A stretch of DNA of 64,000 bases from NCBI RefSeq assembly GCF_010119235.1, contig NZ_JAAATZ010000001.1:1084501-1148500 (forward strand), given 5' to 3'. Position 1 is the first letter of the stretch; each line of letters opens with the position of its first letter. Below are positions 5,509 through 62,204 of this stretch, piece by piece. A program made the translations under genes and the position numbers. Below the pieces are notes generated by a model. That model searched no databases and was not told the DNA's origin. It saw only the letters and a program-made list of their open reading frames with translations. Source of the DNA: Flavobacterium phycosphaerae. Lineage in GTDB: Bacteria > Bacteroidota > Bacteroidia > Flavobacteriales > Flavobacteriaceae.

Positions 5509-5697
5509 AAGTTTGGGAAAAACCCAAAGAAGTTTTGGATTGCCCCAAAGAAATGTGGGATTTCCCCATGGGAATGTTGGATTACCCCAAAGGGATATTG
5601 TATTTACCCAAAAGAATGTGGGATTATCCCAAGGGGATGTGGGATTTCCCCAAAGGGATATTGGATTACCCCAAGGGGATGTGGGATTATCCCATGT
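5509..5697. repeat. Nine tandem 21-bp units with an internal GGG/CCC dyad
   Basis: Nine contiguous 21-bp units fill 189 bp exactly: 5509, 5530, 5551, 5572, 5593, 5614, 5635, 5656 and 5677 are the unit starts. A typical core is GTGGGATTATCCCAAG, with TGGGATTATCCCA a perfect dyad about a central T. The array lies 100-288 bp upstream of the trans-sulfuration start codon and ends 3 bp from the stop of the DinB-like gene. Several frames are open through it because the unit lacks stops; on the minus strand it is in frame after the DinB-like stop and would read as WGNPTS-type heptads. I read it as non-coding, perhaps a phased protein-binding array. Confidence 0.9.
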
Positions 5698-48785: not shown

Positions 48786-49988
48786 GTGAACTTCCCGCTT
48801 TACATAGCCAAAAGATACCTTTTTAGTAAAAGCAATAATAATGCTATAAATATTATTACTGGTATTGCTTCGGTTGGAATTATAGTGGGTGCGATGGCGC
48901 TGTTTGTGGTGCTTTCGGTGTTTAGTGGCTTGCGTGATTTTAGTTTGTCTTTCTCCAATGATTTTGATCCCGATTTGAAAGTCAATCCTATCTCAGGGAA
49001 ATCTTTTTTTATTACTGCTGCTCAGGAAAATCAAATAAAAAACATTGATGGCGTTGCTTCATACAGTAAAGTTGTTGAAGAACGGGTGCTTTTCTTTTTT
49101 AAAGGAAAGGAGATGGTAACTTATTTGAAAGGCGTTGATGCTAACTTTACTAAAACAAACATCCTTTCTAAAAACAATATTTTTAACGGACAATGGCTAA
49201 AACCGAATACCTACCAAGTGGTCTTGGGTTATGGTATTTCACAAAAATTATCATTGGGGCTTTTTGATTTTAATAATCCGTTTGAGGTTTATGTGCCGCG
49301 AAAAGGCAAAGGTGTTATTGAAAGTGAGGAAGAAGCTTTTTATAAGTCGAGTTTGATTCCGGTGGGAATTTATGCCATTAGTGAAGATTTAGATAGTAAA
49401 TATGTGTTTTGTGATTTGGCATTGGCACAAGAGTTATTGGAACTAAAATCCAATCAAATTTCAGGGGTGGAAATTAAATTGAAACCAAATACAGATGAAG
49501 CCACAGTGATTGAAAAACTCAAGACACTGTTTCAAAATAAGATTGATATAAAAAACAGAGCCCAGCAGAACGCTACATTATATAAAATGCTGAATACAGA
49601 GAATATTGCTGTGTATTTAATTTTTACTTTGGTGATTGTTATAGCGCTTTTCAACTTAATTGGCGCGTTGATTATGATGGTTTTGGATAAAAAAAGCAAC
49701 TTAAAAACACTTTACAATTTGGGTTCCGAAATCAAAGATTTGAAGGAAATATTCCTGTTACAAGGCAGTTTGCTGAGTGTTTTAGGTGGAATTTTTGGTT
49801 TGATTTTAGGAATCATAATCGTCGTAGTACAGCAACAGTTCCAGCTGGTTATGATTACTGATTCTTTGGCGTATCCGGTAGTTTTTAGTATTCAGAATGT
49901 GTTGATTGTTTTTGCAACAATAGTCTCGCTAGGCGTTATCTCTAGTTGGATTGCCAGCAGTCGTGTGAGTAAAAAATTGTTGGATTAA
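48786..49988 (+). CDS. LolC/LolE-type ABC transporter permease
   Basis: 400 aa starting at GTG, directly after rbfA. One N-terminal helix (ITGIASVGIIVGAMALFVVL), a large periplasmic MacB/LolE-like domain and three C-terminal helices (about 275-295, 320-345, 365-385) form the FtsX-type permease fold. With no ABC ATPase next to it the substrate is unknown; lipoprotein release is the usual guess for this family. Its stop overlaps the convergent dusB stop within the same TTAA. Confidence 0.9.
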   Translation: MNFPLYIAKRYLFSKSNNNAINIITGIASVGIIVGAMALFVVLSVFSGLRDFSLSFSNDFDPDLKVNPISGKSFFITAAQENQIKNIDGVASYSKVVEERVLFFFKGKEMVTYLKGVDANFTKTNILSKNNIFNGQWLKPNTYQVVLGYGISQKLSLGLFDFNNPFEVYVPRKGKGVIESEEEAFYKSSLIPVGIYAISEDLDSKYVFCDLALAQELLELKSNQISGVEIKLKPNTDEATVIEKLKTLFQNKIDIKNRAQQNATLYKMLNTENIAVYLIFTLVIVIALFNLIGALIMMVLDKKSNLKTLYNLGSEIKDLKEIFLLQGSLLSVLGGIFGLILGIIIVVVQQQFQLVMITDSLAYPVVFSIQNVLIVFATIVSLGVISSWIASSRVSKKLLD

Positions 49989-54244: not shown

Positions 54245-54909
54245 TTAAATGACACCTTTATTCTTGGCTTCATTGATTAAATCAATATCGGTTCCTCCTT
54301 TTACTTCCAGTATTTCCCTGATGTTTAGTTTGCGTTTTTCAATAGCGCTCAAAGAAAGCGGAATATATTGTGGTAAATCTTTGGTTTTCACTCCTTTGGA
54401 TAAATGAAAAAGAATCTGCTTGTCGAAAACATCTAATTCGATGTTATTGTATTGGGCTTGTCCGACTAATTTAATTACCGTTTGACTGTAATAGCTTTCG
54501 TTGTTGATGATTTTATCAAAAGCAAATAATAATTCATCAAAAGTTAAGTCGTTTTTGATAATTAAACCGCTTGGATTGATGTTTTTGATGATGTTGTTGA
54601 TTTTAAGCAATTCAGTGTGCATGGTTAACAATATCACTTTGCAGTTGGGCATTTCTGTTTTGATTAACATGGCCAAATCTTCACCGGAGTAAATTCCTTT
54701 TTCGGCATATTCGGGCATACTGATATCAAAGAAAGCGATGTCAAATGGTTTAGGCTGGTCAACAATGTTTTCATAGCCGCTTTTGCAGTTATTGGCTTGT
54801 GTTATAACAAACTCAAAACCTTGCTGACTGTATTTGTTAATAGCGTTTTTGTAGGCTTCAATAATAAAGGGTGGTCATCTACTATTAAAATGTTGATTGG
54901 GCTTGTCAT
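54245..54909 (-). pseudogene. LuxR-type response regulator 1 with one frame break
   Basis: The ATG at 54909 opens MTSPINILIVDDHP and then runs into a stop; the frame continues one base off as FIIEAYKNAINKYSQQG... through FFDISMPEY (phosphorylatable Asp) to the end at 54245. A single missing base at GGG 54869-54871 joins them into 221 aa: receiver (about 1-130) and a helical HTH-like DNA-binding end (KTKDLPQYIPLSLSAIEKRK). Its start overlaps the end of the kinase 1 frame (ATGA), so the two are a coupled pair. Without correction only 157 aa from an internal ATG (54718) could be made, lacking the active-site start. Confidence 0.85.
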
Positions 54910-56954
54910 GCTTCTGTTATAATTAGTTGTTGTTTGGTTTCAATTGGTAAGGTGATTACAATTTTGGTTCCGTGGTCTTTTTAGAAGTTATATCAATAAT
55001 TCCTTGGCAGTCGTGTGTTCTTGAAATCATGTTTTGCATCCCGATACCTTTGCTTTTTCTATTGACATCAAAACCAACACCATCGTCCTGGATTTTCAAG
55101 TATACATTTTCTTTATCTCCTTTTACTTCTACGTTGATGTTCTTGGCATTGGCATATTTATTAATATTCTGTAACCCTTCTTGTAATATACGGTACATGT
55201 TGATTTTAATATTATTACCTACTTTATCCCATTCAACATCATTGTCAATGGTATAAACCACATTAGCTTCATGAGATGTTTTTTGCTCTTCGAGTAAATT
55301 ATGCACGATAGAAACAAAGTTATTAATTAAAACTTGTTTTTCTCTATTCAGATCGTGTGAAATTTCACGGATGTCCTGTTCAATGGTTTTTAATTCGTTT
55401 AATAATTCAAACCTTCTTTTGATAGCGTCTTCGTCATTATTGTGATTTAAACTGTCTAAGTTTAAGCGAAGCCCAAACATTCGTCCTAATACACCATCAT
55501 GCAGGTCTTGGGCCAATCGTTTCTTTTCTTTGTTACGACTTTCATCTATAATAGCCTGTTGCGACATCATAAGGTTATAAATGTCTTCGTTGGCTTTCTG
55601 CTGAGCTTGTTTGTATAACAGCTCTCTGGTACGCGCGCGCTGGGCTCTTACTACAAATAACAAGACTACTACAATAAACGATACCACAAAAAAGTAAAGC
55701 AGTTGTCTGTTTTTTTCGGCTAAACTGTCTTTTTCCTGTATGATTTCGTCGGTTTCGTATGCTATTCTTGCGAATTTATCTTTAGTGATTCTATCAGACT
55801 GTTGAATACTATCGTTAAGTTTTATGTATTCACTATAATAAAAAGACGATTTCTTTTTGTCAATTAGAGAAAGTTGTTTTAAGGCAGCTAAAACATCACC
55901 TGATGAGCTTAAACTTTTAGCTTGTTTTAAAGCATCGGTAGAGTATTGAATAGCTTTTGTTGTATCATTTTTTTGAGAAAAATATTCTGAAAGATGTATT
56001 TTGTTTATTATCCCAGTTGAAAGATTCAAACTATCAGCAATTTTATATGTTTTGATAAAAAGCCGGTATGCTTCTGCTTTTTTTGTAATTTGAAAAATGA
56101 GTAAGCTAAATTATCGTATAATTTTGTATATAACTCAGGATTATCAACAAATAGATTTTTTTCTTTAAGAGCTAAATTAAAGTTAGATATAGCCTCTTTG
56201 TGATTGTTTAGATTCTGATAAACAACCCCCAAGTTATTTAATGTGACTGCTCTGTTATGGTTGTTACCTATTTTTTTGTAGAAGCGACTTCTAATGCTTT
56301 TTTGTGATATATTATAGAGTTGGTATAGTTTTTTAATTCGTTAGAACTTACTGCAATATAATTATACGCGAAATACTCTTTCGAATAGTCTTTATATTTT
56401 GACAAGTATCTTAGTGATAAGATTGATGATTGTTCACAGCCAGAAAAATCTCCAATATTTACCTGGACATATGCTTTTTCTAAATAATTCCTTCCTAGAT
56501 TTAAACTATCCTTTGTTTTATAAAAGAATTTTTCTGCTTTTACAAAATAGATATAAGAACTATCTATTTTACCAATATCAATATAATGATTTGCAAGTGC
56601 ACTGTATGATTTAGCAATAGAAGAAGTGTCTTTTGCTGAAGATGATATATCAATTAAATAATTAACGCTATTTAAAAAATCTTTGTTTTGTTTTAAAGAT
56701 TTAAAATTGGTAACCACTTTTAATAAATCAGCTCTGTTTTTTAAACTATTACTTTGAGATTTTAATATTAAAAAAGCTTTCCGGTTATTTTTTAGTTTTT
56801 CTTTAAATGATGTGTTAGTGTTTTGTTGCGACGACAGATAAAATGATAAGCTATCTTTAATAGGTGTTATGGTCGCCAACTTGTCGTTTTTATTTTTTGT
56901 ACAATTAAATAAAAACAAAAAGAAAGGAATTAATATAAGTACTCTTTTTTTCAA
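54906..56954 (-). pseudogene. TPR sensor histidine kinase 1 broken by three frame shifts
   Basis: Pieces at 56268-56954, 56026-56232 and 54956-56029 form one 683-aa kinase if one base is added at T7 56271-56277, T7 56078-56084 and CC 54970-54971. Layout: lipoprotein signal with LFNC, TPR repeats (about 60-350), membrane helix (YFFVVSFIVVVLLFVV), HisKA_3 box (KKRLAQDLHDGVLGRMFGLR, phospho-His in LHDG), HATPase_c with NINKYANA and DDGVGFDV. After the last correction the end reads TGTKIVITLPIE...EA and its TGA overlaps the regulator 1 ATG, which supports the corrected frame. No homologous full-length alternative is visible. Confidence 0.87.
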
Positions 56955-56994
56955 AATATAAAAATGAATTGCTAAAGTACTAAAAGTAATATCA

Positions 56995-57034
56995 ATAAAA
57001 AAAGACTTTCAAATATTTGAAAGTCTTTTTTTAT
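56995..57034. terminator. Bidirectional terminator between peptide gene and kinase 1
   Basis: Perfect 40-bp inverted repeat centred on AAATATTT with arms AAAAGACTTTCAAA / TTTGAAAGTCTTTT. It ends the repeat-peptide transcript before the kinase gene. Confidence 0.92.
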
Positions 57035-57057
57035 GATTGTAAAGTGTATATTAATTT

Positions 57058-57315
57058 TTAGAATCTAGGTCTTGTTACTACCTGACCACCGATTTCAGAT
57101 ACTGGTCTAGTTACTACCTGACCACCGATTTCAGATACTGGTCTAGTTACTACTTGACCACCAATTTCATATGCTAAAGGTCTAGTTACTACTTGACCAC
57201 CAATTTCAGCTACTGGTCTAGTTACTACTTGACCGCCAATTTCACTTGGTGTTGTGAACGACGTCACGATAAGCATTAAAGCTAATAATCCAAAAGTTGT
57301 TGCTAATTTTTTCAT
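57058..57315 (-). CDS. Secreted peptide precursor with five EIGGQVVTRP repeats
   Basis: 85 aa. Residues 1-24 are a signal peptide (KKLATTFGLLALMLIVTSF then TTPS). The rest is only repeats: five copies of EIGGQVVTRP, each followed by two or three variable residues (VA, LAY, VS, VS, RF). Two adjacent 36-bp DNA units are identical, so duplication is recent. It has its own terminator and lies between two TPR histidine kinase genes on the same strand. The layout, signal plus identical short modules, is that of a precursor cut into several copies of one peptide, or of a small repeat-built surface protein. I know no named family. Confidence 0.85.
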   Translation of the reverse strand: MKKLATTFGLLALMLIVTSFTTPSEIGGQVVTRPVAEIGGQVVTRPLAYEIGGQVVTRPVSEIGGQVVTRPVSEIGGQVVTRPRF

Positions 57316-57644
57316 AATTTGAGACTTTTTATTGTTAATGTTTTTGTTTCGTTTTTGTGGTGTGTGCCTTAGAAATGATTTGAGGCTATTGCACTTTCAC
57401 GATGTAAAACTAAAAAGGATGTCTCTGTGAAGCCCCATATATAAAGGTGTTTGTGGTAGAATGTACTCGTTTGATAGTGAATGGGGGTCAAATGCGAGTG
57501 GATGATTTTTGCAATTTTGGGGATTTTGTTAAGAATTAGCTTTGTTAGCCAGTAAGAGTTTTTATTTAATCTTATATTCTTAGTATGAGAAAGAATATAA
57601 TTAACGCTTTGACAAATTTGAATTATGAAAATATAGTTGAAGTC
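57316..57644. other. Non-coding spacer upstream of the repeat-peptide gene
   Basis: 329 bp, AT-rich. It contains a 10-bp inverted repeat TTATATTCTT / AAGAATATAA (57572-57600) just past the kinase 2 stop, which may be its terminator, and a weak -7-like TAGTTTTA on the minus strand (about 57404). No ORF of interest on either strand. Confidence 0.5.
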
Positions 57645-59671
57645 CTATATTGGAATTGAAATGTTAATTGTGGTACTTTTATTTGAAATAGACCTAATGA
57701 TAATTGTTCCATTTAGTTTTTTTACGCGTTGTTCGATATTCTGAATACCTATACCATCCCTTTTTTTCAGTGTGCAAAAACCTATTCCGTTATCTGTAAT
57801 AGAAAGACAAATATTTTTTTCGTCTAAAACGATACTAATAATGGCTTTTTTTGCCTTTGAGTGTTTATTAATGTTATTACTTGCTTCTTGAATGATGCGA
57901 TACAAATTCATTTTTATTTCACTTGAGATATTAACCCAATCGATTTCTTGATTAAGTTCCAAATAATAATTAGTTTCGTTGACTCTATTTTGTTCTTTAA
58001 TAAAATCAAACAATAACTTGTAGTAACTATTTGATTTTTTAAACATATTTTGATTCATGTTGTGTGTAATACTCCTGATTTCTTGCTCTATTTTAAAAAT
58101 ATCAGCAACGTAACTGATGCATTTTTTGATAGTTTTCGGATCGTTTTTGTCAGATAGTATTGAAAGATTGAGTCGGGTACTGGTTAATTTATTCATGACA
58201 CCGTCATGTAATTCTTGTGCGATTCTTTTTTTTCAGTTTGTCTTATTTCTTCTTCGTTTGTCTTTTGTATCAGCATCAATTGATAGATTTTTTCGTTTGC
58301 ATCTTGATGTGACTGTAACAATTCAAGTTCTTTTCTCTTGGTATTTTGTCGATAAATTACAAACACTAAAAACAAAACAATTAAAACGCTTAATCCTATA
58401 CTGGCAATTATCCAATTTTGTTTAAGAGCTGTTTCTTTTTGTTGTGTGATTTCTTCGGTTTCGAACTGAATTTTGTAATATTGATTTCGGGCATTTCTTT
58501 CATCAAAAAGTAAGCTGTCATTTTTTTGATGATATTCCTTAATATATTGAGGTGCTTTTTTGCTGTTTATTGCTCCCGCATTACTTAATGCTGTCAGATA
58601 GTAATATGGTGCTTTCGCTTCTTTAGCTAATCGTAAAGCTTTTTCTGAGTATTGAATGGCTTTTAGAGTGTCTTTTTTAAGAAAAAAATATTCAGATAAA
58701 TAAATATTGCTAACTGATTGCTCATTTTTTATCCCTAACGAATTAAACAAACTATCGGTTTTAAAAAAGATGGAAGGGACATAATTGTAGTTTTTTGTTT
58801 TCAGATAACAGTATCCCATGTTGTTTTGCAAATACACAATTGTTAAAGGGTCTTTTTCTATTAATTTTTTGTCATTTAAGGCAAGTTTAAAAAATGAAAT
58901 AGCTTTCTCATATTTTTTTAATTCTCTATATGCATTTCCGATATTATTTAAACAAGTAATTTTTGGGCAGTCATAAGGCATGTTTGGTACATTGTTGTTT
59001 TTTGCAAATTCTAATCCCTTTTGAAAAAAATAAATAGCTTTGTTATATTGCTTCATATTATGATAACAATTGCCAAGGTTAATAAAACAGCCATAAATGC
59101 TAAAATATTCTTTAGAGTTTTTGATTAAATGATAACCTTTTTTAGATGATAACTCAGAGCCTAAATAATCATCCATTTCAAATTGTACATAAGACTTGTT
59201 AAGATAGACTAGTCCTAATCCTAATTTATCATTTGTTTTTTTATAGAGCTTTTCTGCTTTGAGATAATAATAATATGAACTATCTAGAATATGTGTTTTT
59301 CTATAAAAACCAGCTTTATATCGATAATATCTAGCTAATCCTAAAGTGTCTTTGGTTTCAATACTTTTATGGAAATATAGGCTAGACACATTTTTGAACA
59401 TATTCCATCTTTTTGTTGCCAAATAATTAAAAGCGATTGAATTCAAATAAAATTTCATTAAACTATCATCCCTCCTCAAGTCAACAAAAGACAAAGCTTT
59501 GTCATTGTATTTTGTTTTTATATCGAATGCCAATGTATCATTGCCGGCCAAATCCAAATACTTCTTGATAGAATCATTTTTTGAATCTAAAACACCTGTT
59601 TTAGTTTTTTGCTCACAACTATACAGGAATGTTATGAGTAGCAAACACAGTAAGGATAATTTTTTAATCAT
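57645..59671 (-). pseudogene. TPR sensor histidine kinase 2 with one frame break
   Basis: The ATG at 59671 (MIKKLSLLCLLLITFLYSC, lipobox LYSC) opens a TPR region (about 40-370), a membrane helix (IIASIGLSVLIVLFLVFVIY) and the start of the HisKA_3 box, then stops. The frame resumes as MNKLTSTRLNLS... to the HATPase_c domain (NINKHSKAKK, TDNGIGF) and ends at 57645. One missing base in T8 58226-58233 restores TEKKRIAQELHDGVMNKLTS, with the phospho-His exactly at the break; the full length is 675 aa. It is a paralogue of kinase 1. Upstream is a 19-bp motif shared with the next gene. Confidence 0.87.
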
Positions 59672-59828
59672 ATTGCTGATTTGTTTAAAAAACAAAGTGA
59701 ATTTTAACATAAAGGTTAAAACTCACTTTTATTAATTTTGTTATAAAGCCATCATCATAGCTTTGTCAAATTTATATTCTTTCTTTTTGTAAATTTCTTT
59801 GTCAAAACGTATGGTTTATTTTTTATTC

Positions 59829-59847
59829 AAACCTCTAAAATAAACAG
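59829..59847. repeat. 19-bp direct repeat, copy upstream of kinase 2
   Basis: AACCTCTAAAATAAACAGA, identical to 60375-60393. This copy is 158 bp before the kinase 2 ATG; the other is 115 bp before the small secreted-protein gene. Both are in the same orientation relative to the gene they precede. Confidence 0.75.
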
Positions 59848-59863
59848 AAAATAGATTGGATTC

Positions 59864-59880
59864 GTAAAACTATGTTTTAC
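59864..59880 (-). terminator. Hairpin after the small secreted-protein gene
   Basis: Perfect GTAAAAC / GTTTTAC arms with a TAT loop, 3 bp after the stop codon; no T-tract follows, so it may be a weak terminator. Confidence 0.5.
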
Positions 59881-59882
59881 AA

Positions 59883-60260
59883 CTACATATTTATTCCGTT
59901 TAATTGTGATATCAGTTTTTTTGCTGCATTAACAATAGTTTGACAAGAAGATTTAGTTATGCCGGTTACGGTGCTATTCTCAATTCCTTGAGAAAATGAA
60001 ATCGATATTTCTACAGTTACCACACAGCTGTATTTATTATTGTCATCGTTTTTTGCATGTATGTCTTCTAAAATTTTATCTGAACATTCAACTAAATCCT
60101 TAAGAGTGCTAAACTTATACTTAGTTATCTCGTCATCCTGCTTTATGCTGATATAGGCATACTCAGTTTTCTCGCCGTTTACCGATTTAAAATCGTTCTG
60201 TGCATTTCCGTTAAATGAAAATAGAACACTGGTTAAGGAACCCAACAATAAATGTTTCAT
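59883..60260 (-). CDS. Small secreted hypothetical protein
   Basis: 125 aa from the ATG at 60260 (MKHLLLGSLTSVLFSFNGNA, a signal peptide); a TTG seven codons earlier is rejected. The mature part has two cysteines (LVECSDKI, KSSCQTIV) and one more in YSCVVTVE. No family recognised. Between kinase 2 and regulator 2, and sharing an upstream 19-bp motif with kinase 2, so a role in the same signalling system is possible, as inference. Confidence 0.72.
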   Translation of the reverse strand: MKHLLLGSLTSVLFSFNGNAQNDFKSVNGEKTEYAYISIKQDDEITKYKFSTLKDLVECSDKILEDIHAKNDDNNKYSCVVTVEISISFSQGIENSTVTGITKSSCQTIVNAAKKLISQLNGINM

Positions 60261-60625
60261 AGGCTTACGAATAATTTTCAATTAGTACAGCCCTGCTTCT
60301 TGTCGTCCAAAACATAAAAGCTAGGGCTGTATTTTTTGGGTTAGTTTAGTTTTCTTTACCTCTGCTTAATAACTAACCTCTAAAATAAACAGATAAATTT
60401 CTAATAATTTTGTCTTCAAAATACCACTTCTGAAAGACATCATAGTTGAGGGGTTAGTCTCCTTTTTTTACCGCATTATATAATGTTAAATATTTAACAT
60501 CGTAAAAGTAAAAGAGGAATAATACATTTTGATACACTAAAAGTGTACATTTTGTTAAAATTTGATTTATTTGGAAGTGTTTTTGCGTTTTCTATCTCAA
60601 GATAGATAGAATAAAAATGGGAAAG
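60261..60625. other. Non-coding spacer with repeats
   Basis: 365 bp, AT-rich. It holds the second 19-bp copy (60375-60393), a palindrome GTTAAATATTTAAC (60485-60498), a TACACT/AGTGTA hairpin (60533-60547) and a CTATCT/AGATAG hairpin (about 60592-60607) that may terminate regulator 2. No plausible gene. Confidence 0.55.
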
Positions 60626-61281
60626 TTATATTAAACCTTGTTTTCGAGCCTCTCTAAGAATGTCTTCATCAGTTCCTTTTTCTATATCAAAATATTCTTT
60701 GATTATAGACTTTCTCTTATCAATAGCACTTTTTGAAAGATTCAAATATTCAGGAAGGTTTTTAGTTTGAATTCCTTGTGCCAAAAGTAATATGATTTGA
60801 CGATTGTAACTATCCCAAACTTTAGTGGTTTCAAGCATTTCTTTTTAAGATTTCGTATGGTTGAACTGTGATAATTCTCTCCTCTCACGATGGTGTCAAA
60901 AGCCATTAGAAGCTCCTCTGCCTGAAAATCACTTTTAACGAGTAATCCGTTAGGGTTATGTTCTCTTAAAATTTTTAATAGTAATAATGATTCTGAATGT
61001 GAGGTTAGGATAATTATTTTGGAATTTGGTAAGTGCTTTCTAATCAATGCCACTAAGTCTTCGCCGGAATGTAAATTTCTTTCTGGAAAAGGGGGTAAAG
61101 TAATGTCAAGCATCACTAAATCAAATGGAATTGAAGTGGTACTAATTACTGCATAGGCCATTTCACAATTAAATGCAGATACGGTTTTTACATCATAACC
61201 ATAACGATTAAAAGATAAAATTGCCTTATAACCTTCAATAATTGGCGGGTGATCATCAACCATTAATACCTTTACTTCCAT
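60626..61281 (-). pseudogene. LuxR-type response regulator 2 with one frame break
   Basis: The ATG at 61281 opens MEVKVLMVDDHPPIIEGYKA, runs through LVMLDITLPP (acceptor Asp) and the rest of the receiver and then shifts at A5/A3 runs (60838-60846). One added base joins it to MLETTKVWDSYNRQIILLLA... and the HTH-like end (KNLPEYLNLSKSAIDKRKS) for 218 aa. It is a paralogue of regulator 1 and the natural partner of kinase 2, although the small secreted-protein gene lies between them. Confidence 0.85.
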
Positions 61282-61313: not shown

Positions 61314-62204
61314 CTAAATTTCCAAATAGTTGCCGCCGGCTATTCTGTTGATAATCAAATCAACGTTGTCTTTATAGGATTTTGAGAAGGGAAGTTTGGT
61401 TGTAGAGTTTTTGATATAACATACGGTATTACCGGTATGAATACGAGAAACTTGGTCAACATTGATGATATAGCTGTTGTGAATTCGTAAGAATTGTGAT
61501 TCGGGCAATACGGTTTCAAAATGTTTTAGGGTTTTGAAAGCGGTTATCATTTCGCCGTTGTTCAAATGAATGTCGGTAGAGTTGTTGTCGGCCTCAAAAT
61601 ATAGTATGTCGTCAGAATCAATATAACGGTAATCGCCATAGGACTTGATACAAATAATCAGCGACTGTTGTTTTTGTACCATCACAGGGCTATCGGTGGC
61701 CGGAACGGTTTTTACTGTAACATCGTGCTCGGTTTCTTCTTCTTTTTCGAGTGTTTCTGCTACCGTTTCATCTAACACCTCGAAAGTGGCTGCCGGATTT
61801 TTGACTTCCATGTGTGGCAAATCCGATTTGATGGCGCGGTCAAATTTGAGTATCGCTTTTCGAAAATCATTGATGTCTAATGGTTTCAATAAATAATCGA
61901 TGACTTCGTATTTAAGCGCTTCATAGGCCAGTTCTTTTTTAGAAGTGGTAATGATAATCTTGGGAACCACACTTAAATAGCGGTATAGTTCATTGATAAG
62001 CGACAGGGCAAGATTGCTCTTTTTGTCGGAAGGATCAATTTCGAGAAAAACTAAATGGGGTTGGTGTTCCAGAATTAAATTCACGCCTTCATCATAACTA
62101 TTGGCCGATGCCACAAACGACAAATTACGAAAACGCTCAGCAATGGCCTGAGTTTTCGTGACATCGTCTTGACTGTCATCAATAATAATATAGGTGTGGC
62201 TCAT
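61314..62204 (-). CDS. LytTR-family response regulator with an altered phosphorylation site
   Basis: 296 aa: receiver-like domain (about 3-125), a charged linker (about 126-190) and a LytTR DNA-binding domain (about 195-290; GDYRYIDSDDILYFEADNNS, FLRIHNSYIINVDQVSRI). In the receiver the position normally held by the phosphorylated Asp reads HLVFLEIDPSD: Glu takes its place, with Asp two residues on. Conserved acidic residues (IIDDSQDD) and Lys of LLKPLD are kept. No partner kinase of the LytS type is nearby. Confidence 0.9.
   Translation of the reverse strand: MSHTYIIIDDSQDDVTKTQAIAERFRNLSFVASANSYDEGVNLILEHQPHLVFLEIDPSDKKSNLALSLINELYRYLSVVPKIIITTSKKELAYEALKYEVIDYLLKPLDINDFRKAILKFDRAIKSDLPHMEVKNPAATFEVLDETVAETLEKEEETEHDVTVKTVPATDSPVMVQKQQSLIICIKSYGDYRYIDSDDILYFEADNNSTDIHLNNGEMITAFKTLKHFETVLPESQFLRIHNSYIINVDQVSRIHTGNTVCYIKNSTTKLPFSKSYKDNVDLIINRIAGGNYLEI

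Follow-up and report, generated by a model that had tools for sequence, protein, structure and literature searches.

Closest described systems

Agr, ComX-ComP and ComC-ComD are peptide-kinase quorum systems of Gram-positive bacteria with a polytopic membrane sensor. Three likenesses are relevant to the locus described here. As in AgrD-AgrC, ComX-ComP and ComC-ComD, a small exported precursor lies beside the genes for a kinase and a regulator, and the signal diverges along with the sensor half, whereas the catalytic half is conserved. The TPR solenoid fold is shared with the RRNPP receptors (Rap, NprR, PlcR; Alo of Paenibacillus), which to our knowledge have no kinase domain. In the excerpted text of PMC7425212 these receptors are intracellular and their precursor gene, with an export signal, is found beside the receptor gene, also as here; published abstracts place RRNPP in Gram-positive bacteria. 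Finally, in yeast alpha-factor and the fungal Kex2-processed repeat proteins a signal peptide is followed by tandem near-identical units, often with short linkers (PMC7329392, in excerpt).

The present locus lies in a window of 64,000 nucleotides from Flavobacterium phycosphaerae (contig NZ_JAAATZ010000001.1, positions 1,084,501 to 1,148,500). It differs from Agr and ComQXP in having a TPR solenoid and one membrane span instead of a polytopic membrane sensor and in lacking a dedicated modifying gene within the cassette, and from the Gram-positive peptide-kinase systems in carrying many copies per precursor in the genus and in belonging to Flavobacteriaceae. Unlike the RRNPP receptors, the receptor candidate is a membrane histidine kinase with HisKA_3, HATPase_c and a membrane span. 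The Kex2-processed proteins differ in that no regular dibasic site is found here at the borders of IGG-type units; in KxD-type units a dibasic pair lies inside the unit and not at its border (arrays read by eye in both cases). The present system is also bacterial, with a histidine kinase as putative receptor, and common ancestry with the fungal proteins is not claimed. In its working it would resemble the Gram-positive peptide-kinase quorum systems, combined with a precursor of the alpha-factor type and a receptor fold like that of Rap, and as tested it is a member of none of these groups. No description of this precursor/kinase system was found in the open-licence literature searched, and PMC12487129, as far as its excerpted text goes, does not concern it. 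We consider it likely that the locus is a peptide ligand-receptor cassette, in which an exported and cut peptide is bound by the TPR sensor of the downstream kinase.

The locus in the window

Coordinates of the features are collected in Table 1. The precursor opens with MKKLATTFGLLALMLIVTSFTTPS and continues with five EIGGQVVTRP modules, which start at residues 25, 37, 50, 62 and 74 and are separated by spacers of 2-3 residues. Tandem Repeats Finder reported 4.8 copies of period 36 with 89% matches and a score of 264; ORF and repeat finder agree on the gene with a signal-like leader and five near-identical modules given in the preliminary description. The exact 36-bp duplication mentioned there is present (at least 36 bp) in a shifted phase, while in the peptide register no two of the 30-base modules are identical. 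A comparison of 11-codon units in this array gave a pN of 0.09 and a pS of 0.35. Elsewhere in the window, the repeat-finder list included a tandem array of 21-base units at 5509-5696.

Table 1. Positions of the precursor, its parts and the neighbouring features within the window
Feature	Position	Strand	Basis
Response regulator after downstream kinase; N-terminus out of frame	54245..54871	-	
Downstream TPR-HisKA_3 histidine kinase, likely peptide partner; frame-broken near 56271, near 56078 and in C-terminal tail	54956..56954	-	
Intrinsic-terminator-like hairpin, 15-base stem and T-run, between precursor and kinase	56990..57031	-	
Peptide precursor gene, 85 aa, five EIGGQVVTRP copies	57058..57315	-	ORF and repeat analysis
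Peptide copy 5, then Arg-Phe-stop	57067..57096	-	
Peptide copy 4	57103..57132	-	
Peptide copy 3	57139..57168	-	
Peptide copy 2	57178..57207	-	
Peptide copy 1	57214..57243	-	
Conserved leader, residues 1-23, hydrophobic, export-signal-like, Thr-Ser-Phe at 18-20	57247..57315	-	
Conserved promoter-region element, direct repeat (20-bp period) whose start lies 168 bases before ATG	57446..57483	-	
Upstream TPR kinase paralogue, unmatched to window peptide; frame-broken near 58226	57645..59710	-	
Response regulator upstream of upstream kinase; frame-broken near 60853-60883	60626..61281	-	
LytTR-type response regulator, head of syntenic block	61314..62204	-	

On the minus strand the genes follow each other in the order LytTR regulator, response regulator, small secreted protein, TPR kinase, precursor, TPR kinase and response regulator, with thiL next on the opposite strand. 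A TPR kinase on each side of the precursor and a response regulator beyond each were seen as previously described. The name LuxR-type, formerly given to these regulators, is not retained: a Pfam scan of the intact L031 relatives of both gave a receiver domain only, and no LuxR-type DNA-binding domain was found in them. The downstream regulator is 96% identical to its L031 copy over 208 residues.

The window assembly has broken reading frames in both kinases and both regulators (54245-61281), and the precursor is intact. Six neighbours are intact as well, namely LytTR, ThiL, LepA, Dus, an FtsX-like gene (48786-49988) and RbfA. The breaks inside the kinases adjoin runs of seven or eight T, and the broken regulators contain no homopolymer run of six or more. 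Assembly error at homopolymers and real decay or loss of the receptors are both possible.

The secreted-looking protein of 132 aa at 59883-60281 (minus strand) belongs to a family found in 9 of 35 loci, where it usually adjoins the upstream kinase. This low frequency led to its rejection as part of the peptide unit; it could be a ligand or accessory protein of the upstream kinase itself. In 5 of the 35 loci an ABC transporter ATPase and an ABC-2 permease/M1-peptidase fusion are encoded beyond thiL (L032:407-4928, minus strand); this pair is conceivably an exporter or peptidase, or an unrelated neighbour. No neighbour family that would supply the cassette with a dedicated processing, modifying or exporting enzyme was found in most of the 35 loci.

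The precursor family and selection on its copies

A protein search with the window precursor returned 113 relatives at E <=10, with Flavobacterium or Bacteroidota as named sources. The 37 relatives inspected had the leader in common, and nearly all of them carried repeats of quite different sequence. Within the genus, the window protein was matched in 34 of 199 genomes (E <=1e-3) and a leader profile in 280 of 398 (E <=0.1), with about 228 at E <=1e-4 as read by eye. In total 114 loci were fetched, consisting of the 34 window-protein matches (one per row, window excluded, two from genome G101) and 80 of the best other leader-profile matches. A closed precursor was present in 112 loci, a kinase of at least 640 aa in 101 of these, and also a regulator in 100.

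Thr-Ser-Phe is found in the leader of all 113 leader-selected precursors, window included; exceptions occur among loci chosen by the kinase (L199, L211, L215, L222). Mean leader identity is 0.69 and the 113 proteins have 104 distinct C-terminal 9-mers, in loci that were leader-chosen. The genus family combines a conserved leader with a divergent mature part. No Pfam or NCBIfam family matched the precursors above cut-off. Judged by eye, 102 of the 113 closed precursors (window included) are arrays, with 3-7 copies in the 89 arrays counted. Two unit classes could be distinguished, IGG-type (e.g. IGGRSSQGE) and KxD-type (e.g. LVGGGSAGGNKKVD), next to single-copy and degenerate forms, which make up 9 of 98 genus rows. 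In 80 of the 102 arrays the C-terminal three residues are found again further inside the protein, so that the last copy usually ends at the protein end; the window is among the 22 exceptions. In locus L319 of the genus the kinase is preceded by three consecutive small exported ORFs, two of them alike, which is duplication at the level of the gene rather than of the repeat.

Within-array copies were compared in the 89 arrays (window included) that passed the register rules. The pS was 0.367 and the pN 0.047 (ratio 0.13), and pN was below pS in 88 arrays, the remaining one having no synonymous change. For the linkers of IGG-type arrays the pN/pS ratio was 0.37. As the protein is conserved while synonymous sites vary, the copies are under selection and not merely fresh duplications, and their peptide sequence is maintained by purifying selection.

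Pairing of the precursor with a kinase gene

Where homologues without a neighbouring kinase were looked for, the opposite was found: a TPR/HisKA_3 kinase is encoded downstream of the precursor in all 106 of the 114 fetched loci that have at least 700 bases there, starting 243-591 bases after the precursor start. A response regulator is next in 98 of the 99 loci with at least 2900 bases, the exception being L066. The partner kinases carry TPR repeats, HisKA_3 and a region annotated HATPase_c.

The pairing also holds in reverse. Among loci chosen by kinase alone, a precursor-like ORF is located upstream in 77 of 77 with enough sequence, 76 by the leader-or-repeat filter and L215 by the signal-peptide filter; three of the 80 chosen loci (L183, L191, L202) end too near the kinase and were left out, and many share genomes with loci of the other sets (L145, from F. 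silvisoli RD-2-33 with an intact cassette, and L031 are the same sequence). The leader-or-repeat filter gave no precursor-like ORF for the 21 second kinases in the kinase-chosen loci.

The terminator of its own ascribed to the precursor was confirmed as a hairpin and T-run just past the stop codon. A hairpin follows the precursor in 109 of 110 loci (window included), versus 33 of 110 after one base shuffle each. Upstream, the pattern of the promoter-region element has a single match in the 3.3-Mb window genome at <=3 mismatches. At <=7 mismatches it is present 143-172 bases before the ATG in 100 of the 114 loci, 18 of which had served to derive the pattern; its best match inside kinase genes has 11 mismatches. 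Because a LytTR regulator heads the block, the direct repeat is possibly a LytTR-type site, and that regulator can be regarded as a candidate regulator of the precursor promoter.

Relatives in other genera and structure of the sensor

Leader searches outside the genus gave a best match of 6.6e-5, the others being weaker, and relatives were found there only through the kinase. This was matched in 153 of 249 genomes at E <=1e-60, and the best 88 kinase loci were listed. A small exported ORF lies ahead of the kinase in 86 of these 88 (L263 picked by hand); the two without it are L241 and L302, the latter with only 339 bases upstream. Within 700 bases upstream the ORF was present in 83 of 85 of these listed loci, compared with 2 on the reverse strand and a shuffled mean of 2.8 (largest 6). 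With 106 of 106 in the genus and 83 of 85 outside it, a small precursor directly beside the kinase gene is a feature of the system, export being read from the leader only. Order-wide, among 119 genomes, the kinase was found at E <=1e-90 in only one genome of another family, in which both copies have a small lipoprotein-like ORF upstream.

The ORFs of the 88 listed loci are mostly single-copy, with a median length of 54 aa, and lie 133 bases from the kinase. Arrays occurred in 7 of 81 precursors from these loci, each with single-copy nearest neighbours; L250 has six copies starting STDGDD, and L248 of the same genus has one such unit at its C-terminus. On a kinase-domain tree of 179 rows, with states set by eye, the array or single-copy state changed at least 14 times; automatic array calling had misjudged several rows (among them L047, L076 and L080 called single, L235 called array and L259 missed). 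Arrays arose repeatedly.

Structure prediction for the F. silvisoli kinase (pLDDT 80.9, pTM 0.53) gave a helical TPR solenoid, confidently modelled at about residues 32-365, and a long helix that runs through the membrane span. The best fold matches of the modelled sensor were the TPR domains of LGN in partner complexes; RapI, NprR and further Rap receptors came next, and the match to receptors of this RRNPP kind spans about model residues 30-390. Sequence profiles also touch Rap proteins (RapF 5e-10). TPR folds are common, and the predicted solenoid fits a peptide receptor rather than proving one. By simple rules, 88 of 101 kinases have an N-terminal Cys and 95 of 101 a membrane span, which in the L145 kinase is a single strong one. 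If the Cys is lipidated and about 418-440 is the membrane span, the TPR domain would be periplasmic, and therefore an exported peptide could reach the sensor inside the cell envelope.

This predicted location would also suit a peptide that is the ligand of the kinase within one cell, acting as an exported periplasmic reporter of, for example, envelope proteolysis or lipoprotein transport. In addition, a Cys is present in the lipobox region of 66 of 81 leaders outside the genus (from the best 88 loci listed), and such precursors may stay anchored to the envelope. The same Cys is found in 0 of 98 leader-selected precursors of the genus and in the kinase-found L215, L319 and L320; loss of the lipid anchor may have occurred within the genus. 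A reporter within the cell is nevertheless unlikely in our view, as it gives no clear reason for species specificity or for the repeated gain of tandem copies, and peptide and sensor diverge together between species.

Covariation of peptide and sensor

In the genus, peptide distance correlated with sensor distance after removal of kinase-domain distance (partial r 0.495, n=100, p 0.001), and also with regulator and leader removed (0.405). The corresponding value in other genera was 0.526 (n=86 from the best 88 loci listed, p 0.001). The catalytic half, given the sensor, showed 0.027 in the genus and -0.126 in other genera. Between regulator and peptide 0.217 was found with the kinase domain removed, 0.009 once the sensor was known, and r 0.36 in pairs. 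By unit class the partial r was 0.59 for 47 IGG-type and 0.30 for 53 KxD-type loci. Mantel-type tests of this kind leave some relatedness, and more weight belongs to the pair test and the within-gene control. Non-overlapping nearest pairs gave r 0.70 in the genus (50 pairs, p 2e-8) and r 0.75 in other genera (43 pairs from the best 88 loci listed, p 8e-9). When pairs were chosen by regulator distance with nothing removed, the rank correlation was 0.79 for the sensor and 0.49 for the kinase domain. Signal and sensor half co-diverge, and the catalytic half does not.

The preliminary description had left it open whether one or both kinases sense the peptide. In the 14 loci with both kinases, the downstream sensor gave 0.57 (p 0.0005) and the upstream sensor -0.14. 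This same-locus control supports the downstream kinase, and the upstream kinase was rejected as receptor.

In the genus, the profile along the kinase is flat, at 0.48-0.66 over positions 1-390, falls to 0.19 at 391-420 and is about zero or below beyond. In other genera it ranges from 0.26 to 0.74 over 1-390, with the top at 181-210 (0.74), and is zero after 480. Given the flat genus profile, co-inheritance of the module by co-transfer of neighbouring DNA may be part of the signal. Taken to its full extent, this would mean that recombination carries the precursor along with the beginning of the kinase gene and that their products have no contact. The two genes do adjoin, and loci L041 and L034 have a similar peptide, with sensors closer to each other (0.36) than the kinase domains (0.44), the regulators (0.52) or the leaders (0.45) are. 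However, in other genera the part nearest the peptide gene (0.32-0.41 over 1-120) stays below the value at 181-210, albeit with another low at 271-300 (0.26), the drop in the genus profile coincides with the end of the sensor, and the purifying selection on the copies would be left unexplained. Such hitchhiking is highly improbable as the only source of the covariation. A column-by-column scan for contact residues found none; its top 45 columns, 24 in the kinase half and 16 in the sensor, were dominated by clade effects, and this result was set aside.

Least probable is that the kinase simply controls a product of another kind, whether a surface or adhesion component built of repeats or something like a bacteriocin. 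Repeat proteins are indeed common on cell surfaces, but the same slot in the best 88 loci listed outside the genus mostly holds short single-copy ORFs, and the covariation is with the sensor half only.

Proposed mechanism and significance

The earlier reading of an exported signal sensed by a kinase is strongly supported for the ligand and the downstream kinase by synteny, by the selection on the copies and by covariation; its alternatives of a surface component and of an unrelated filler protein lose support. The ligand-receptor cassette is probably a species-specific pheromone system with precursors like that of yeast alpha-factor. Judging from its leader, the precursor would be exported, and a protease would cut from it several nearly identical peptides, each about 8-16 residues long. 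The covariation suggests that the extracytoplasmic TPR solenoid of the downstream kinase binds the peptide, and gene order and domains suggest that the kinase signals to the adjacent response regulator. Cutting, phosphorelay and action between cells are what we infer for this locus. Peptide and sensor would be expected to diverge together between species, with the other half of the kinase conserved, in a species-specific pheromone and its receptor. With tandem copies, each transcript would yield more peptide, and a terminator placed behind the precursor would hold receptor expression below that of the peptide.

It is an evenly balanced proposal that Flavobacteriaceae have a family-wide pheromone language, in which each species has its own exported peptide, often from a multi-copy precursor, read by a co-evolving extracytoplasmic TPR kinase. 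Within the open-licence literature searched, it may be the first of its kind from this part of the Gram-negative bacteria. If true, it would provide species-specific peptide signalling for Flavobacteriaceae, which are common in water and soil, with peptide sequences ready for synthesis and testing. It would further add a bacterial example of multi-copy pheromone precursors evolving repeatedly, and would offer many natural transitions from single-copy to multi-copy precursors for the study of copy gain.
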